Below are positions 1 through 54,200 of a DNA stretch of 64,000 nucleotides, piece after piece. The stretch's first letter is position 1; each line of letters opens with the position of its first letter. A program made the translations under genes and the position numbers. Below the pieces are notes generated by a model. The model had not been told where the DNA came from. It saw nothing but the letters and a program-made list of their open reading frames with translations, and searched no databases. Source of the DNA: Phalacrocorax aristotelis (Eukaryota; Chordata; Aves; Suliformes; Phalacrocoracidae); the NCBI RefSeq assembly GCF_949628215.1, contig NC_134276.1, forward strand, positions 110,894,756 through 110,958,755, in the 5' to 3' direction.

Positions 1-616
1 ATGATTAGTGAATTCAGTTTCAACTTTCAGTTGAAAACAACAGTTTCCTTCACCAACATGCAGTCCTATAGGTGGATAGAACTGTTTAAAACTCACTTTT
101 GAAATGTGTGACTGACAGTCACAGCTCTCCCTCAGAAGCTGTACAGCCTATGCCTGGTTCAGTGGGAATCCTTTCCTTTTCCCCTCCCTTTTGTCTGGCA
201 CTCCTCAGCTCAAACCAATGACTCTAAACTAGGTCTCGCTTGGTGTTCCTTGATCCCAAACCCAAAGTTGATTAGCACTGATCTGGCAGTGTATTTATCC
301 ACATAAATATCCAGCACAGTGGACAAGAGGTTTAATTACAAATCTGGATCTTTCTTAAAGATGCCAAACTCATAGAACATTATCTCAGTTTCTTACAGGG
401 ATAAGAATTTCTACGTAATAGGAGAAAATACTTGTCCTTTTCTCATTTGTCTCTTCTCTAATGTCTTATCCACTTAACATCTTCTCCATTCAACATCATC
501 TCACTGTATCTGGCGTCAGGGTCTCCTCATATGAAAGCTTTTTGAAGTAGAGAGTTGGGAAACAGAATTTTATACCTCTGGTTTATTTCTTATTATATAC
601 AGTACCTTCTCTTTAC
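1..616. other. ABCC13 intron 24 (incomplete), nothing recognised
   Basis: Noncoding AT-rich intron sequence. Both strands were scanned for a GRTGAGKS-type exon and none was seen. Confidence 0.6.
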
Positions 617-749
617 TCTGTGTCTGAAAAGAGATGTTATTCAGGGCTAAACCAAGATCCTTCCTGTACTGAGCCTTGTAGTTAACAAACTCTATTATTC
701 CTCCATTGGGCCACCCCACTGGTGGTCTTTTTGACATTATCCATGGTTC
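617..749 (-). CDS. ABCC13: ABCC13 exon 24 (entry to NBD2)
   Basis: It encodes EPWIMSKRPPVGWPNGG, then VNYKAQYRKDLGLALNNISF, the start of NBD2. The acceptor is TTCCAG and the donor GTAAAG. It is 133 nt and ends in phase 1. No Walker A exon is visible in 1-616, so the gene continues to the left. Confidence 0.9.
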
Positions 750-1445: not shown

Positions 1446-1547
1446 CTCTTTATCCATTTCTGCATATTCACAAACTCTTTCAACTGAAACTGAATTGGTC
1501 TCGATTTCACATACCTTACGCACCCAAAAATTTAGACTTTGAATTAT
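1446..1547 (-). CDS. ABCC13: ABCC13 exon 23
   Basis: It encodes LNFWVRKVCEIETNSVSVER and VCEYAEMDKE, the conserved segment linking TMD2 to NBD2. The acceptor is CCCAG and the donor GTGAGC. It has 34 codons, phase 0/0. Confidence 0.93.
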
Positions 1548-2762: not shown

Positions 2763-2889
2763 ATTTAGAGCATAGGATATCGATAAACCCACAGTAGAAG
2801 AACTCACTGTATTTCCAGCCAGTACTACAAACAGTGCAGCAAAGAACACCATTAGATTTCCCAGAAATTCAAGCCTGACCGATAGCCAC
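2763..2889 (-). CDS. ABCC13: ABCC13 exon 22 (TMD2)
   Basis: It encodes WLSVRLEFLGNLMVFFAALF, then GLSISYALN, the last TMD2 helices. The acceptor is TACAG and the donor GTAAGT. It is 127 nt and ends in phase 0. Confidence 0.93.
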
Positions 2890-3676: not shown

Positions 3677-3876
3677 CTGTTTGAGATGACATTGTTGTAG
3701 AAGTAAACTAAGTTCTCATACACAACATCATTATATTTTCTAATGAATCTCTCTTGGTGGCCAAATGCTCGAACTGTTGATCGCCCTACAAGAGTCTCAC
3801 TGAAGTGGGAGATGATGGGAGAATAAGACGCTCCTGCTAGCCGTCGAATTTGCCGTGAACTCGCTATGTAGCATCG
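3677..3876 (-). CDS. ABCC13: ABCC13 exon 21 (TMD2)
   Basis: It encodes SSRQIRRLAGASYSPIISHF and SETLVGRSTVRAFGHQERF, highly conserved in MRPs. The acceptor is TTAG and the donor GTACTG. It is 200 nt and fully open although it lies downstream of the stop. Confidence 0.93.
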
Positions 3877-4880: not shown

Positions 4881-5036
4881 TTGGATAGTACAATAAAAGT
4901 ATCCCAGGGGAATAACTACTACTGTGAATAACGGTGAGGCAGATGTGATAACCAGAATGGTTCCAATAACATCTAGTGTACAATTTAGTCAAGTTCGTAA
5001 GTAGTAATGGAAACGTAAGTCCACGATAAGTAAGTC
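4881..5036 (-). CDS. ABCC13: ABCC13 exon 20 (TMD2), contains in-frame stop
   Basis: It has 52 codons, phase 0 at both ends, acceptor TTACAG and donor GTAAGT. It reads DLLIVDLRFHYYLRT, then TGA at 4989-4991, then LNCTLDVIGTILVI and SPLFTVVVIPLG. Family alignment expects Trp (TGG) at the stop, so one G-to-A change suffices. The rest of the exon remains clearly conserved. The product would end at residue 857, before NBD2. Confidence 0.9.
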
Positions 5037-6284: not shown

Positions 6285-6776
6285 CTTGTGAATGGATAAA
6301 TTAAAAGACAGTATGAATGCTTGGGGAGGGAGAGGAGATTGAGCTTGTTTCTGTCACTGTTTTCTACCACAGTGAGCAATCCAACAGTCGCACCTCATAT
6401 CTTAGTTTTACAAATGTACATATTTGTATTTTGCTGGTACATCTTACTACTTCATAAGTAGTTTTTTCCTGCAACTAAATCTCTCATGCTAGTATGCCAC
6501 TACACATCAGCACTGATTTCCTTCCTCAGTGAGATGCCAACATAACTTCATCAGGTTGCTCTTGGAAGTTCCAATTCACAGAAGTATCATAAAATTAAAT
6601 AGCATTTTCTTCTACCTGTCTGCATATCTCTTCTCCTCTCCCCAGATCAAACTATTATACTGTGTTGCAGACAATTCTGTTTATGAAACAACCAGCATTA
6701 TTTCTTTACTAATACACATTCAGGTAGATCAGCCTTGGCAAATGGTGAGAAAAGAGTCATAAATGCTCATCCTTGC

Positions 6777-12050: not shown

Positions 12051-12224
<174 letters not shown>

Positions 12225-14203: not shown

Positions 14204-14461
<258 letters not shown>

Positions 14462-15988: not shown

Positions 15989-16055
15989 TTTTTTAAGACT
16001 GGCAGGCCATTTTTCTCCCAGCGGAAAGAAGCATCAATAAACCCAACAGCATGAT
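15989..16055 (-). CDS. ABCC13: ABCC13 exon 11 (NBD1 A-loop)
   Basis: It encodes GFIDASFRWEKNGLPVLK. The aromatic residue before the Glu fits the A-loop that stacks on adenine. The acceptor is CACAG and the donor GTAAGA. It is 67 nt. Confidence 0.88.
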
Positions 16056-18432: not shown

Positions 18433-20345
18433 TCCATAGAACCATTTAGGTTGGAAAAGGCCTTTAGGATCACCAAATCCAACCATTAACCTAACACCGC
18501 CAAGTCCACTACTGAACTATGTTCCTAAGCACCACATCTACACATCTTTTAAATACCTCCAGGGTACTTAAAAGCGGTGACTCAACCACTTCCCTGGGCA
18601 GCCTGTTCCAATGTTTGGCAACCCTTTTGGTGAAGAAATTTTTCCTCGTATCCAATCTAAACTTCCCCTGCTGCAACTTGAGGCCATTTCCTCTCATCCT
18701 ATCACTTGGTGTCTGGGAAAAGAGACCAAGAGCCACCTTGCAACAACCTCCTGTCAGGTGGCTGTAGAGAGCAACCCAAGTGCAGGACCTGGCACTGAGC
18801 CTTGTTGAATCCCACAGAACTGGCCTTGGCCCATTGATCCAGCCTGTCCAGATCCCTCTGCAGAGCCTTTCTACCCTCAAGCAGATAGACACTCCTGCCC
18901 AACTTGGTGTTGTCTGCAAACTTACTTAGGGTGCACTTGATCCCCTTGTCCAGATCATTGATAAAGATATTATACAGAACTGGCCCCAAAACTGAGCCCT
19001 GGGCAAAACCACTTGTGACCAGCTGCCAATTGGATTTAACTTCATCCACCACAACTCTTCGGGCCTGTCCATCTAGCCAGTTTTTTACCCAGCAAAGATA
19101 CACCCATCCAAGCCATGAACATCCAGTTTCTCCAGGAGAATGCTGTGGGAAACAATGTCAAAGGCTTCACTACAGTCCAGGTAGACAACATCAACAGCCT
19201 TTCCCTCATCCACTAAGCATGTCACATTGTCATAGAAGGAGGTCAGATTAGTCCAGCAGGACTTGCCTTTCATAAACCCATGCTGACTGCTTCATCTGCA
19301 CTGTAGTGTATTTCCAGCAGATATCTGATAAGTTGAAGTCCCCCACGAGAACAAGGGTTAGCAATTGTGAGACTTCTGTCAGCTGCTTGTAGAATATTTT
19401 GTCTGCCCCTTCACCCTGGTTGGGTGGTCAGTAACAGACTCCCACCACGAAATCTGCCTTGTTGGCCTTCCCCGATTCTTACCCATAAACACTCAAGCCT
19501 ATTGTCACCGTCATTAAGCTTTAGACAATCAAAGCACTCCCTAACATACAGGGCTACCCCACTGCCTCTCCTTCCTTGCCTACTGAAGAGTTTATAGCCA
19601 TCCATTGCAGCACCTCTGCTGTGTGAGTCATCCCAACCACGTTTCCGTGATGGCAACTATATCACAGTTTTCCTGCTGCACAATGGCTTCCAGCTCCTCC
19701 TGTTTGCTGCCCATGCTGCATGCACTGGTGTAGGTGCATTTCAGTTGGGCTGTTATTCCTGCCACCTTTTTTGGGGGAGAAACCCTAATTCCTATGTGAC
19801 CATTCCCAGGCACTTCCATGGTTTCTAACACATCCATAACTCTTGCGTCTTTGCTGCCACGTGGATCTCCATCCCCTGCCTCCACTGAGATGGCAGACTG
19901 AAGGACCTCGCTAGCACACCACCCCTCAAACATTGGCATGCTGCCCTCATGCTTATCTCTAGTGAGCTTGGTTTTATCCCTTCCCCCCTTCCAATCTAGT
20001 TTAAAGCTCTTTCAATGATCCCTGCTAATTCCTGTGCAAAAATCCTTTTCCCCTTTTGAGACAGGTGTATCCCTTCTGTCGCCAGCAGGCCTGGTGTTAT
20101 GTAAACTAGCCCATGATCAAAAAACACAAAATTCTGCTGGTGGCACCAGGCTCTGAGCCAGGTATTGATCTGCTGTGTCTTCCTGTGTCTTCCCTCATCA
20201 TTCCCTGCAACTGGAAGGATAGAGGAGAACACTACTCGTGCTCCTGATCCTTTAACCAGTTGTCCCACGGCCCTGAAGTCTCCATTTACTTTCCAATGAA
20301 GTTTAACAGAGGCATTTAAAGATCCAAAGATGTGAATGCATCCCT
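18433..20345 (-). mobile_element. CR1 LINE, internally deleted, with ORF1 esterase, endonuclease and RT remnants
   Basis: Read on the minus strand, the order is: C-terminal SGNH-esterase part of CR1 ORF1 (about 20340-19996, ending EGIHLSQKGK); the ORF2 start with endonuclease motif AITETW (about 19840-19630) and on to GDFN (near 19340); then a deletion; the RT C-terminal half ([18 protein letters not shown], about 19180, and [16 protein letters not shown], about 18980); a second deletion after the LHLG motif; and the 3' untranslated part ([15 protein letters not shown]). The RT YxDD box reads FADN, so the catalytic Asp pair is lost. The 3' end near 18433 has the avian CR1 tail. It is inactive, lies in ABCC13 intron 8 and has the same orientation as the gene. 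Confidence 0.9.
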
Positions 20346-20827
20346 GATAGAATTCCACTGAAACAAGGCAGGATTAATTTGGTTCATATTTTTCATATTT
20401 TTTGGTTTTTTTTTTCTTTTTCATTTTTTTAGAGGTTTAGTGTTTGAGAAGGGATAGCTAAAAATTACAGACCAAAAATGCATTCCCTTACCACTTAAAA
20501 AAGGAGGAGTATAGAGAAGGTGGTTGATTTCTATGCAATAGAAACAGGATGATTAAAACAGTGAAATGAGATTCAGGTACTTTGGATTTGGTTTCTGACT
20601 TTCTAACAGAGGTCTTTCAAAACTTGGTCAATCCACAATCTTTCACTCTCTCTCATGCAGTCATATACACATATACATACTATTAGAACCTGAAAATTCA
20701 AATATATTGTGTGGATAAATTTAATGTTTTGAGATACTGAGGCAACGTTTGTGAATCATTCAGCTACTAATGCAATAGGAAACATGAGAACCGGTTCTGC
20801 ATGAATTAATATTTGTATAAAACAAAC

Positions 20828-23293: not shown

Positions 23294-24755
23294 CTGCAAC
23301 CAGAAAATACAGAGGTTACAAAAATCAAGCTGAAAGGACAATAAGGCTTAGAAAGCCTCAGCTTCGGCCTAGCTTAGAACCTCCCAGTGCAGGAACCAGC
23401 AACAGCAGGCTTCACAGCAGGCACATGTATAATCTCAGTGTGGCAGGCAGATTCCAAAAGTCCCAGGTGTCTCCGGGACTGACACCCAAACACGCTCGCT
23501 CTCTCTGTGTCTCTCTGAGTGCCTCTCAGTTTCCACTGCGTCACCTGCAATTCCTGCATGTAACAAGACAGTGCTGCAGCAACTCACTCCAAATTCCATC
23601 CCATGTGCAAAGCACAGCCTGACTCGGCACTCACTTATCAGCTCTACTCAGAGGAAGAAGCTCTACCTCTACCGTGTAGCTGTGGAAACTTGCCAGAAGA
23701 CATGCCCACTCCAGCTGGAGCCTCTGTTCTTGATCTGACTTACTGATGCACCTTGATATGCGACTTGAGAAAATTAGCTCCTTTATGTAATTGATTTATA
23801 CCTTACTAGTAAAATTTTGTGTACTGGTTCAGAAAACACCTGAGAAATCTATATCAGAATATTGGTTTGACTCTCTGGAGAAAGACGGCTGTATTTTAAA
23901 TAACACAGACAGTTATTTATTTCAGATTTGGATTATTTTTTGTCTTCCTTAACTTGTGCTTAATAGTTAAATACTGCAGTTAAAATACCAGCATACCATG
24001 TTCATAACAAAGTAAACTAAAAGTGCAGCACTGAGAAACCAGCTTCATCTCATATGCTAAATATTAACAGTATAGTAAACATTTTTACGCTTTGCAGGTC
24101 AGACAGCTGCTTTTACTTTTATGTTATTAGCACCTGCCTCTCTTGTAACTAATAATGCTGCCACCTCAGCATATCTTATTAAAGGTGGGCTAAGTTATAG
24201 ATAGATTTCCACAGCATTTAGCCATCTTTTAAACACCTGAAAAACTATGAGCCTACTGGGTATTCAACTCAACAGAAATTAAATTTCACTAAAATCAGAG
24301 GGGAAACTTCAACCTCCAAAGGAGACAACGTGGCAAACTTCAGCTTCTCATATTCACTACCACTATATAGCAAAAACAGTGATCACGTATACCCAATTTT
24401 TTTCCCCAGACATCTAGCCTAGAAAAGTTTTGCCAGGTCATTCAGTAAATTTGGGAAATTAACCAATAATTAAAATAGGAAGAGTTAGGTTTCTACATGT
24501 ATCTCCAACACTATGTCTGCACAGGTGGATGACAAAAGTATGTAATATCAGGATTAGAGCCTTATAATAGAAATGCTGCTGAATTTCCAAATTACTATGA
24601 ACAAGTAACCATCAAAATATAAAGTCAGTCTGTTAGCCTGTCACCACTGTATAACATCCTGGGTTTTAATCATGCTGGTAAGCATATTATCTTTTAACAC
24701 TGAGTGTTCATTTTAGGTTTTGTTTTGAACAAAAAGTAGAAGAATACGTTATTAT

Positions 24756-24933
24756 GTTTTTGTATATCAGGCCAACAACTGCAGTCTTGATTTTGGCTGC
24801 AGTAAGCATGTTGTTACGCTGGTATAACTGATGGAGAAGAGTTTGTGTGAGCACTACAAAAAACAGGGCAATAGCATAGCCATATCCACTCCCAGATGAA
24901 CTCGGATGATTTTCACTGACCATTATAATTGCT
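24756..24933 (-). CDS. ABCC13: ABCC13 exon 5, splice donor lost
   Basis: It encodes a TMD1 helix (GYGYAIALFFVVLTQTLLHQ) and the GLIYKN motif. The acceptor is TTTCAG. By family alignment and phase the exon must end after AAA AAC, but the next bases are ATAATAAC where GT is required. A cryptic GT 8 bases further (24746-24747), or skipping the exon, each leads to a stop within three codons in exon 6. Confidence 0.85.
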
Positions 24934-30356: not shown

Positions 30357-30418
30357 CTGGTAAACCAGGAATATGTTAATTTACTGAAGAAGAAAACATT
30401 TTCTTCAGGGCTGCGTTT
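30357..30418 (-). CDS. ABCC13: ABCC13 exon 2
   Basis: It encodes the family N-terminal motif SPEENVFFFSKLTYSWFT. The acceptor is CAG and the donor GTGAGA. It is 62 nt and ends with two bases of an Arg codon, completed by exon 3. Confidence 0.85.
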
Positions 30419-31729: not shown

Positions 31730-32115
31730 CGGCTGATGCATCCGCCGGGTCCCTCCCGGTGCAGCCTGCGGTCCCCTGCGGGGCGGCGCCCCGCCCTCAG
31801 CCCCCCCCCCAACGCCTCCTCGCGGCTCGCCCGTCCATCCCCGCCGTGTCACCTTCTTGCCGGTGGGACTCGGGCGCTTGTAGCAGTCACTCTGCTTCCC
31901 AGGCGAGGCGGCCATGGCCCCCGCCCAAAGCGGACGGCTCCGAAGGGGCCTACTGGGGCAGCCGGCGGCGGCCGTTAACGGCCGCCCCCCCAGCGCCGCG
32001 CGCGAGGGGAGAGGCGTTGGAGGCGGGAGAGGCGCGAGAGGAGGCGCTAGGTAGCTCCACCGCCTTGGTAGAGCCTGGGGTGAGGGAACGTTGTGCCCTG
32101 AGAGGCAACGTGCCG
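31730..32115. promoter_or_regulatory. ABCC13: CpG-rich island over ABCC13 exon 1
   Basis: A sharp rise in GC and many CpG dinucleotides in otherwise AT-rich DNA, centred on the ABCC13 start codon. It is the probable promoter and 5' UTR of ABCC13, transcribed leftwards. Long open frames here on both strands follow from GC bias and are not called genes. Confidence 0.75.
31853..31915 (-). CDS. ABCC13: ABCC13 exon 1 (start codon)
   Basis: It begins MAASPGKQ with the ATG in a strong Kozak context (GGCCATGG), inside a CpG-rich island, and ends at a GTGACA donor after Lys-Lys (21 codons, phase 0). The N-terminus is too short for a TMD0, so this is a short MRP. The start is chosen because the next exon continues in phase. 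Confidence 0.75.
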
Positions 32116-51200: not shown

Positions 51201-54200
51201 TTTATATTTCAAGGGTTCAGAGGAACATAGTGCTATCTGCAGAGTCATTAGTTAAACTGTGTGTCCTCATTGTTCAACGCACGTTTTGGCACCGCATTCT
51301 AAAGGTCTGGAGTGAAGAAAATGGAAGTTCTTCACTTTTAGTGGAAAAATGTGGAAAGAAAAATGAAGAGGTGGTATTTCAGGTGGTCTAGCTCATCAAA
51401 TTACTGCCTAACATTTTCATCTTTTTCAGATGAGGACAAAAAATGTCCTGAATTTACAGATCTTAATATAGGCGATGCTTTGTCTGGGACAGAAGTCCAA
51501 GTCCAGCTACTGCTATACACAAAGGAAAATCCAAATTGTTCTGAGAGACTCATTGAACATAATGTTACTGCATCTGAGTACCTTAATACCTCCAAGAAAA
51601 TTGTCTTTGTAATTCATGGCTTCAGACCAACAGGATCTCCACCGGCATGGCTAGGTGACATGAAAGAGCTTTTACTGTCTTCAGAGGATATTAATCTCAT
51701 TATAGTTGACTGGAATCGTGGTGCTACAACTGTGAATTACATTACTGCTGTTGCAAACTGCAGAAAAGTTGCAGAAATACTGAAGAACTATGTGGACCAG
51801 ATGCTGGTAAGGCAGAGAGTTGCATCTGTTCTGCATAAGTCTAAATAGCATATTTTGAGTGGGAACGGATATTTAAAATACATCTAAAGTGAACAATGTC
51901 AAATGGCATTTCCTTGACAAAGTATTTGCTAGGTTTGCATACAGTTACAACTGCATGTCTTTAACGCCACCTGAGTTCTTATTTCCCTTTCACTGAAGTA
52001 TGCATGAAAGCTCTGATTCCTTTAGCCAGCTGGAAGTTTTAGGCCTTTAGGAAAGACAGAACGTGCTGGTGGGGAGATGAAGTGGGACATGTTCAAATAG
52101 TATGCAGCATTAAAACTTTACAAAAGCATTACACTACTCTTTTTACTATTAAACTCCTATAATTAAAGATTGTAAATGAAAAAGAAATCACTGACAGAGA
52201 TATAAATATTTGTTCCAAAATTATATAAACTTTGTGATTCTAGAGGGAGTTGCCAAAACAGTTGTTGATGCCAGTGGTCTTAACTGGGCTTTAGATTTGT
52301 TGCTTAATCAAATGAACAAAAAAAATTATCATCTCATTTATGGCATTGTTAGATATATCACTTGATTTTTCTTCTATTCTCACCACTTCTTTTCCCAGCC
52401 ATTCTCAGTTCTACATGCTGTAGAGTAAGAAAATATTCATGTGGAATTTGAGTAGAAAGCTCAGCATTTTGAGAAAGGATAAGGTGAAAGAAGAGGGACA
52501 CCATCAGAATCTGGACTCTGGGGCTACATATAGTGATAACGATTTGTAATTATGACAGTAAATTTTTTTGTTATGGAACAGGAGAATAAAATAGGACTAT
52601 AAGAGCAGTCTCCAATACGGAGTGGGTTAAAAGGTGTATTTTGCAAATTTCTCGATGCAGATTTCTGGTTAATTGCTGGTTACAGGTCTGCCTGGCAAAG
52701 CAATGACTGCAGGGCATGCTTGGGCCCACCTTGTTGTGCGAGCCATCAGAGGGATGGTGGTAGTGTATTTGTGTCCCACAGCTATGAGTTTCATACTCGC
52801 AAGCTGTCGTGAGGCCTTTGTTAATGCATTTTGAGATGCATTAATAATTAAGGTCCCATGTATCATTCCATCACTTTTCAGAGATTCTAACAGGTCTGCT
52901 GATACTATTTCAGAGTTCTTTGATAGGGTTGTTTTTAAATACCGCCTGCTTTGTAGAATGGGCATCTTAAGGCTTTCCTGCAAGTGTGCATTTGGCACCA
53001 TTATTCAGCAGATCTGTGGTGTAAGTATTAATGGTATTGTGTTTTAAATTTATTTTATTGGAAGGATAAGGCAGGGGGAGATAGATTTTTTTTTTTCCCC
53101 TAATTCATAGTTTTGTTTCATCTTTCTTGTATCTGGTAAATGTCTTCCTCTTCCCTCCCCATGCTCCTCCTCTAACTAGTGTGACAGTTTGGAAGAAATG
53201 TGACTCAAGCTTCCTTTTTACATTTTTTTTAGTCAAAGAATTTCATAATTACTGCACCGTTTAACTAATGCAGAATGTCAAACTGAAAAGAACTTTGTAA
53301 TTTCCATTTGTTTTTAAAGTTAGAGAGTTAGAAATATAACTTAGAGTACTGATAAAAAGTGAAAACTAAATCAGTCTACTGGTGTCTGTTCAGTTAACCA
53401 TATGTGTGGTTGTGGCTTTGGGTTTTTTTTTTTCCTGATAGGTACATGGAGCTTCTCTTGATGCTATCTATATGATTGGTGTTAGTCTTGGAGCTCATAT
53501 AGCTGGTTTTGTTGGCCAGAAGTATAATGGCAAAATTGGCAGAATTACAGGTAAGTCTTTTAATCCCGATACACATATTCTAATGTACCTTGTGTTGTTG
53601 TCATAGCTGCAAATCACATAGATGCTAGCACTGAAATATTGACAAATGAGGACTGATTATTTAGTAACATACATGAGGAAAAATGTATCCCTGGTAGAAG
53701 TTCAGAAACTTGTGGAAGTCTGCCTTCAGGACCTAAGTTACACCTGAAATTTTCCAACGTCTTTACCTCTGGTCTCTCAAATGAAAATTGAGTGCTACAT
53801 TCAAATGCAACTTAAATTACATACTACCTGAGTTTCTGTCTAGTTGATGAAGAAAGTCAGGTCCCTCTGCAGGGAGATTCGAAGGCTCTTGGTCAGACCA
53901 CAGGAATCAGACACCAGGATTTAGTTTCGGTTTGAGGTATCTGAACATGGTGCAGGCTTTAGTGTGTTGAGCCGTCTGCTACAGGGAGCTTAAATCAGGT
54001 GTTCAACCTGTGTGTGGATACTGCAAATCTTACCTCATACTTGTTACACCGTCAGCATTGTCATCTGCGGGAAGTGATGCATATGGTGAAAATTGGAGTA
54101 CCATCATTTGCGTACATCTTTCAGGATCAGGTTGCGTGAAGTTTAGGATTAACTTTTAGATGCTGGTTCCTAGGGCAGAATCCACAGTGCTAATTTGGGT

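Follow-up and report, generated by a model that had tools for sequence, protein, structure and literature searches.

A probable young unitary pseudogene of ABCC13 with an in-frame TGA in exon 20 in Phalacrocorax aristotelis

The ABCC13 locus and its neighbours

The DNA analysed here (the window) is a stretch of 64,000 nucleotides, bases 110,894,756-110,958,755 on a 219-Mb contig of a genome of 1.28 Gb in 352 contigs. It carries exons 1 to 24 of a gene on the minus strand, which is ABCC13, encoding an MRP-type transporter, probably of the 12-TM form, with ABCC2 as its closest paralogue. Since the 3′ end of this gene lies to the left of the window, 30 kb more were taken in, and the overlapping part proved identical to the window. 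Among solved structures, the best match of the 436-residue 3′ part of ABCC13 is ABCC2, and a published tree groups ABCC2 with ABCC13 (PMC5902450). The 12-TM form is also the one given for ABCC13 in a passage of PMC10721954. Between RBM11 and exon 2 we found no convincing TMD0 exon, in a search that short or diverged exons could escape.

Upstream of ABCC13 and on the same strand, three exons lie at about 44200, 40317-40090 and 36326-35997 (minus strand); we take these exons, at about 44.2, 40.3 and 36.3 kb, to be RBM11-like. Both marks by which ABCC13 can be identified, ABCC2 as the nearest relative and an adjoining RBM11-like gene, are present at this locus. An open frame with a lipase-like stretch at 51342-51845 on the plus strand is probably LIPI, and the RBM11- and LIPI-like neighbours stand in the order known from human 21q11. 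The intron between exons 8 and 9 holds, at 18500-20400 (minus strand), what we presume to be CR1-like reverse transcriptase fragments.

The exon 20 region gave one match in a whole-genome DNA search. A protein search queried with exons 20-21, in which only the best candidates were scored, gave 13 matches: 2 are the ABCC13 locus itself, and none of the remaining 11 exceeds 46% identity. Neither search found a second copy of ABCC13. One 22-base pattern of exon 20 had 0 matches in viral_contigs.

Exon structure and reading frame

A purpose-written spliced alignment against human ABCC2 served to model the exons, from TMD1 onward, and the linker and 5′ end of the model were corrected by hand. The model comprises 28 exons, 1,294 codons and 3,885 nt, and ends in a family-like AGIR-TGA. 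Its main features are as follows.

31853..31915, minus strand: proposed first coding exon (MAASPGKQSDCYKRPSPTGKK), a GC-rich stretch; the weakest part of the model, with no homology support
30357..30418, minus strand: exon 2
24756..24933, minus strand: exon 5, TMD1; 178 nt with its end placed at the family boundary
15989..16055, minus strand: exon 11, start of NBD1
14312..14438, minus strand: exon 12, NBD1 Walker A (GQVGSGKSS) intact
12057..12224, minus strand: exon 14, NBD1 signature ISGGQ and Walker B LYLLDDP intact
4881..5036, minus strand: exon 20, TMD2 segment; 156 nt, phase 0/0, GT-AG flanks
3677..3876, minus strand: exon 21, the first past the TGA, open
2763..2889, minus strand: exon 22, open
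1446..1547, minus strand: exon 23, open
606..749, minus strand: exon 24, start of NBD2, open
window coordinates -62 to -4716 (left of the window), minus strand: exons 25-28

From exon 5 onward, exon length equals that of ABCC2 in 20 of the 24 exons compared, two of these matches (exons 5 and 25) having been imposed from the paralogues. The spliced alignment against human ABCC2 gave no frameshift in the model. The spliced frame contains just two internal stops, codons 858 and 1280, as opposed to 87 and 82 stops in the remaining two frames; this frame is therefore coding, and the TGA is no mistake of frame.

The in-frame TGA of exon 20

An earlier note on this DNA had described an in-frame TGA in exon 20 of ABCC13, which we confirm at 4991-4989 of the minus strand, the exon number included.

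4989..4991, minus strand: in-frame TGA (model codon 858), with CTA as the next codon

The exon had been called in phase with intact splice sites, and it is: the frame reads DLLIVDLRFHYYLRT-TGA-LNCTLDVIGT within 156 nt of phase 0/0, flanked by the acceptor tgttacag and the donor gtaagt. In length it equals exon 24 of ABCC2 from the same genome.

In an alignment to solved structures, with the query carrying X at the TGA, the TGA column corresponds to Trp 1102 of the human ABCC2 chains (LRSW). The same LRSW is found in rat ABCC2, and ABCC2 of the same genome (on contig C12) has FRSW. Elsewhere in this genome the column is occupied by Phe in the ABCC1-like, ABCC3-like and ABCC10-like loci, by Leu in an ABCC6-like locus (L010) and by Thr in a SUR-like locus (L012, in a gapped alignment), all of these names being our own assignments. 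The claim that family alignment predicts Trp therefore holds for the ABCC2 clade and fails for the other paralogues of the same genome. Although codons for R, G, S, L and C are likewise one step from TGA, the kinship of ABCC13 with ABCC2 makes Trp the best guess for the lost residue, and TGG appears the likeliest ancestral codon.

Upstream of the TGA (4989-5036, minus strand), exon 20 reads DLRFHYY at the place of DETIPMS in ABCC2 and DSTIPPI in ABCC1 of the same genome. The loss from this stretch of a Pro common to the paralogues may hint at relaxed constraint.

Splice signals and a second internal stop

Among the 27 introns of ABCC13, 24 are GT-AG and one each is AT-AG, GC-AG and GT-GG. As a control, ABCC2 of the same genome, treated with the same script, gave GT-AG in 31 of 31 introns and 0 stops. 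The unusual signals of ABCC13 and its second internal stop are located as follows.

24754..24755, minus strand: donor of exon 5, AT and not GT (AAC/ATAATA) at the family boundary
6775..6776, minus strand: donor of exon 18, GC (AAG/GCAAGG); GT in ABCC2 and ABCC1 of the same genome
window coordinates -60/-61, minus strand: acceptor of exon 25 (NBD2 Walker A), GG and not AG
window coordinates -4669 to -4671, minus strand: second internal TGA, codon 1280, in the last exon, followed by AAA

The family boundary of exon 5 falls where VYKK precedes ALTL in ABCC2, and ABCC13 has IYKN there; we set the end of the exon from the ABCC2/ABCC1 exon length and from the alignment of residues. The start of exon 25 was likewise set from the paralogues, with EK before VGIVGRTGAGKS at the boundary, and its acceptor consists of a pyrimidine-rich tract followed by GG (ctgtttcGG/GTTGGA). 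At the exon 5 donor and the exon 25 acceptor, ABCC2 and ABCC1 of the same genome have GT and AG, respectively. We used ABCC1 for the named boundaries only; its run against the ABCC2 reference fitted the N-terminus and linker poorly, with short spurious exons and with one stop in the poorly fitted N-terminal part. The GC donor of exon 18, which stands in a good context, is probably usable, if possibly weak, and was counted apart from the lost splice signals, which affect 2 of the 27 introns (those without GT or without AG).

Past codon 1280 the frame continues for 14 family-like codons to a TGA, so that the family-like end is 15 codons away. The second stop costs 15 residues only and could mark an old, harmless C-terminus.

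Sequence conservation and the age of decay

Where human ABCC2 and the ABCC2 and ABCC1 of the same genome share a residue, ABCC13 keeps it at 226 of 311 positions before the TGA, in a count that begins at exon 5, and at 184 of 237 past it. The shared residues are kept at 105/126 positions in the NBD1 exons and 125/151 in the NBD2 exons, and at 89/136 in the TMD2 exons, 8/15 in exon 20 and 8/20 in exon 5. The low retention in TMD2, exon 20 and exon 5 could reflect an older relaxation or a different substrate. In both NBDs of ABCC13 the Walker A, signature, Walker B and H-loop strings are present. Because these main motifs are intact and conservation does not drop past the TGA, any loss of the gene would be recent.

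The age was estimated with a simple Poisson model covering exons 5-28; its input was 0 frameshifts, 2 lost splice signals and 2 stops, with indel ratios of 0.05-0.15. Since the end of constraint, it gives 0.6-1.1% neutral substitutions per site, with intervals that together span 0.25-2.8%. At a rate of about 2e-9 per site and year for birds, on which the figure in years depends, the age would come to a few million years. The same model expects 1.5-2.6 frameshifts at the best-fitting age, where we observe 0, which tells somewhat against such a loss, and since frameshift indels are absent from the model, ABCC13 is possibly less decayed than its four lesions suggest.

ABCC13 as a probable young unitary pseudogene

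The premature stop in exon 20, together with the two unusual splice sites and the second early stop, leads us to read ABCC13 in this genome as recently lost. We put at about 0.78 the probability that it is a young unitary pseudogene, of which a single copy was found, in an early phase of decay. The gene retains its introns and carries disabling lesions (GT or AG is lacking in 2 of the 27 introns, and the frame has 2 internal stops), and no other functional copy of it was found in the genome. Transcripts would be mis-spliced at exons 5 and 25 and/or degraded, and translation would terminate at codon 858, in exon 20 of 28 and before NBD2. A stop at this place would be expected to expose the ABCC13 transcript to nonsense-mediated decay. 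Any protein made would consist of TMD1-NBD1 and the beginning of TMD2; its end at residue 857, before NBD2, agrees with what the earlier note had proposed. The transporter would thereby be removed and its transport lost, each of these steps from RNA on being predicted from sequence features.

We infer a loss of ABCC13 function, as the earlier note did, and favour it more strongly, because the candidate lesions number four: the TGA is joined by three that the note did not mention, the exon 5 donor inside the window and two more outside it. A single TGG-to-TGA change in a gene without other damage is therefore too simple a picture, and the expectation of Trp comes from ABCC2 only.

Alternative explanations

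The foremost alternative is that ABCC13 works. In that case the TGA would have arisen recently as a nonsense allele that perhaps segregates in the species, and the lineage would tolerate the last TGA and its odd splice signals as variants. Several observations agree with such a gene: the model contains 0 frameshifts, NBD1 and NBD2 are kept equally well, and ABCC13 is stated to be functional in chicken (PMC4458048). A modified but working transcript through alternative splice sites is conceivable, as the automatic model offered in-frame alternatives at both places: at exon 5 a poor GT lying 21 nt upstream, with a tiny extra exon, and at exon 25 an AG lying 27 nt before the GG, which would add 9 residues and no stop. 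However, on a simple scale the upstream GT of exon 5 scores -3.1 versus at least 1.8 for the 31 ABCC2 donors, the 9 added residues would directly precede the Walker A strand, and the shifts at exons 5 and 25 would both be required simultaneously. We therefore regard a working ABCC13 as unlikely, although it is the best placed of the alternatives to a young pseudogene.

Decoding of the TGA is far less probable. On this reading, the context UGA-CUA would cause Trp or Arg to be inserted by a few percent of the ribosomes, which would then make full-length transporter. UGA CUA is a human high-readthrough context, and MDH1, which has it, shows about 4% readthrough with insertion of Trp and Arg, according to passages in PMC4359377 and PMC5133446. 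In ABCC13 the half downstream of the TGA is indeed well conserved, but a conserved frame there fits a recent lesion as well and is no mark of readthrough alone. The base at +7 (TGA CTA A) is A and not the G of the strongest motif, and CTA past the stop counts for little, being a common codon for Leu in this gene (24 of the 155 Leu codons from exon 5 on, or about 2% of all codons there). Readthrough would not mend splicing, and it leaves unexplained both the splice lesions and the second TGA, after which comes AAA; these other lesions make it improbable. The fullest form of the idea, in which low-level UGA readthrough inserting Trp would give truncated and full-length protein from one mRNA with shifted splice sites at exons 5 and 25, strikes us as scarcely credible.

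Rescue at the RNA level, by A-to-I editing of UGA to UGG, by skipping of exon 20 or by selenocysteine, is similarly very doubtful. Editing of the A would yield Trp, but ADAR disfavours a G 5′ of the edited A, and the base 5′ of the A in this TGA is G. Nor is the structure around the TGA unusual (z -0.88). Exon 20 is symmetric, as had been noted earlier when skipping was raised as a way of keeping the frame; yet skipping would be no rescue for the gene, because it deletes 52 residues of TMD2 and the other lesions stay. Two AG sites past the TGA, examined by eye as internal acceptors within exon 20, lead to a frame shift or an immediate stop. Selenocysteine was set aside, since 20 kb covering the 3′ end of ABCC13 and the DNA beyond gave nothing in Rfam at E up to 1. 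Structural stimulation of readthrough or editing was likewise set aside: structure past the stop is not beyond chance (z -0.12), and there is no signal around it either.

An error of sequencing or assembly is hardly credible as the source of the TGA, given that one gene on a 219-Mb contig shows four separate lesions and ABCC2, by the same method, none.

Comparison with known systems

Loss of ABCC13 has occurred in some mammals. A young loss in a bird, if true, would mean that decay of ABCC13 is no mammalian peculiarity. Among the titles and abstract openings of the matches listed in a literature search on ABCC13, birds and gene loss, none describes lesions of ABCC13 in a bird, and the bird ABCC13 probably adds a case to a kind of event already known. 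Its nearly intact frame would allow the order and date of the lesions to be read from a comparison with a few relatives.

The state of ABCC13 in chicken is not secure from print. Whereas PMC4458048 calls the gene functional, Table 2 of a carp survey gives a chicken count of 0 (PMC4825979). If that count holds, the loss may go back further or reach more widely than the present lineage. In its passage on reported sources of ABCC13, a catfish survey gives zebrafish, dog and macaque (PMC3655950).

Human ABCC13, at 21q11.2, is described as a pseudogene in a passage of PMC2329642. It resembles the bird gene in its kinship with ABCC2, in its neighbours and in yielding no full transporter, which for the bird gene is a prediction; the bird copy is distinguished by keeping nearly the whole coding frame. 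The UGA CUA readthrough genes MDH1, LDHB and AQP4 share with ABCC13 the stop context TGA CTA, but in them the stop is the normal end of a protein, whereas the TGA of ABCC13 lies in the middle of the gene, has A at +7 and is accompanied by other lesions. ABCC2 (MRP2) is the best solved relative of the part searched, with equal exon lengths in 20 of 24 exons (two of them imposed), and differs in that the copy of the same genome is intact and has TMD0, for which the search in ABCC13 found no convincing exon.
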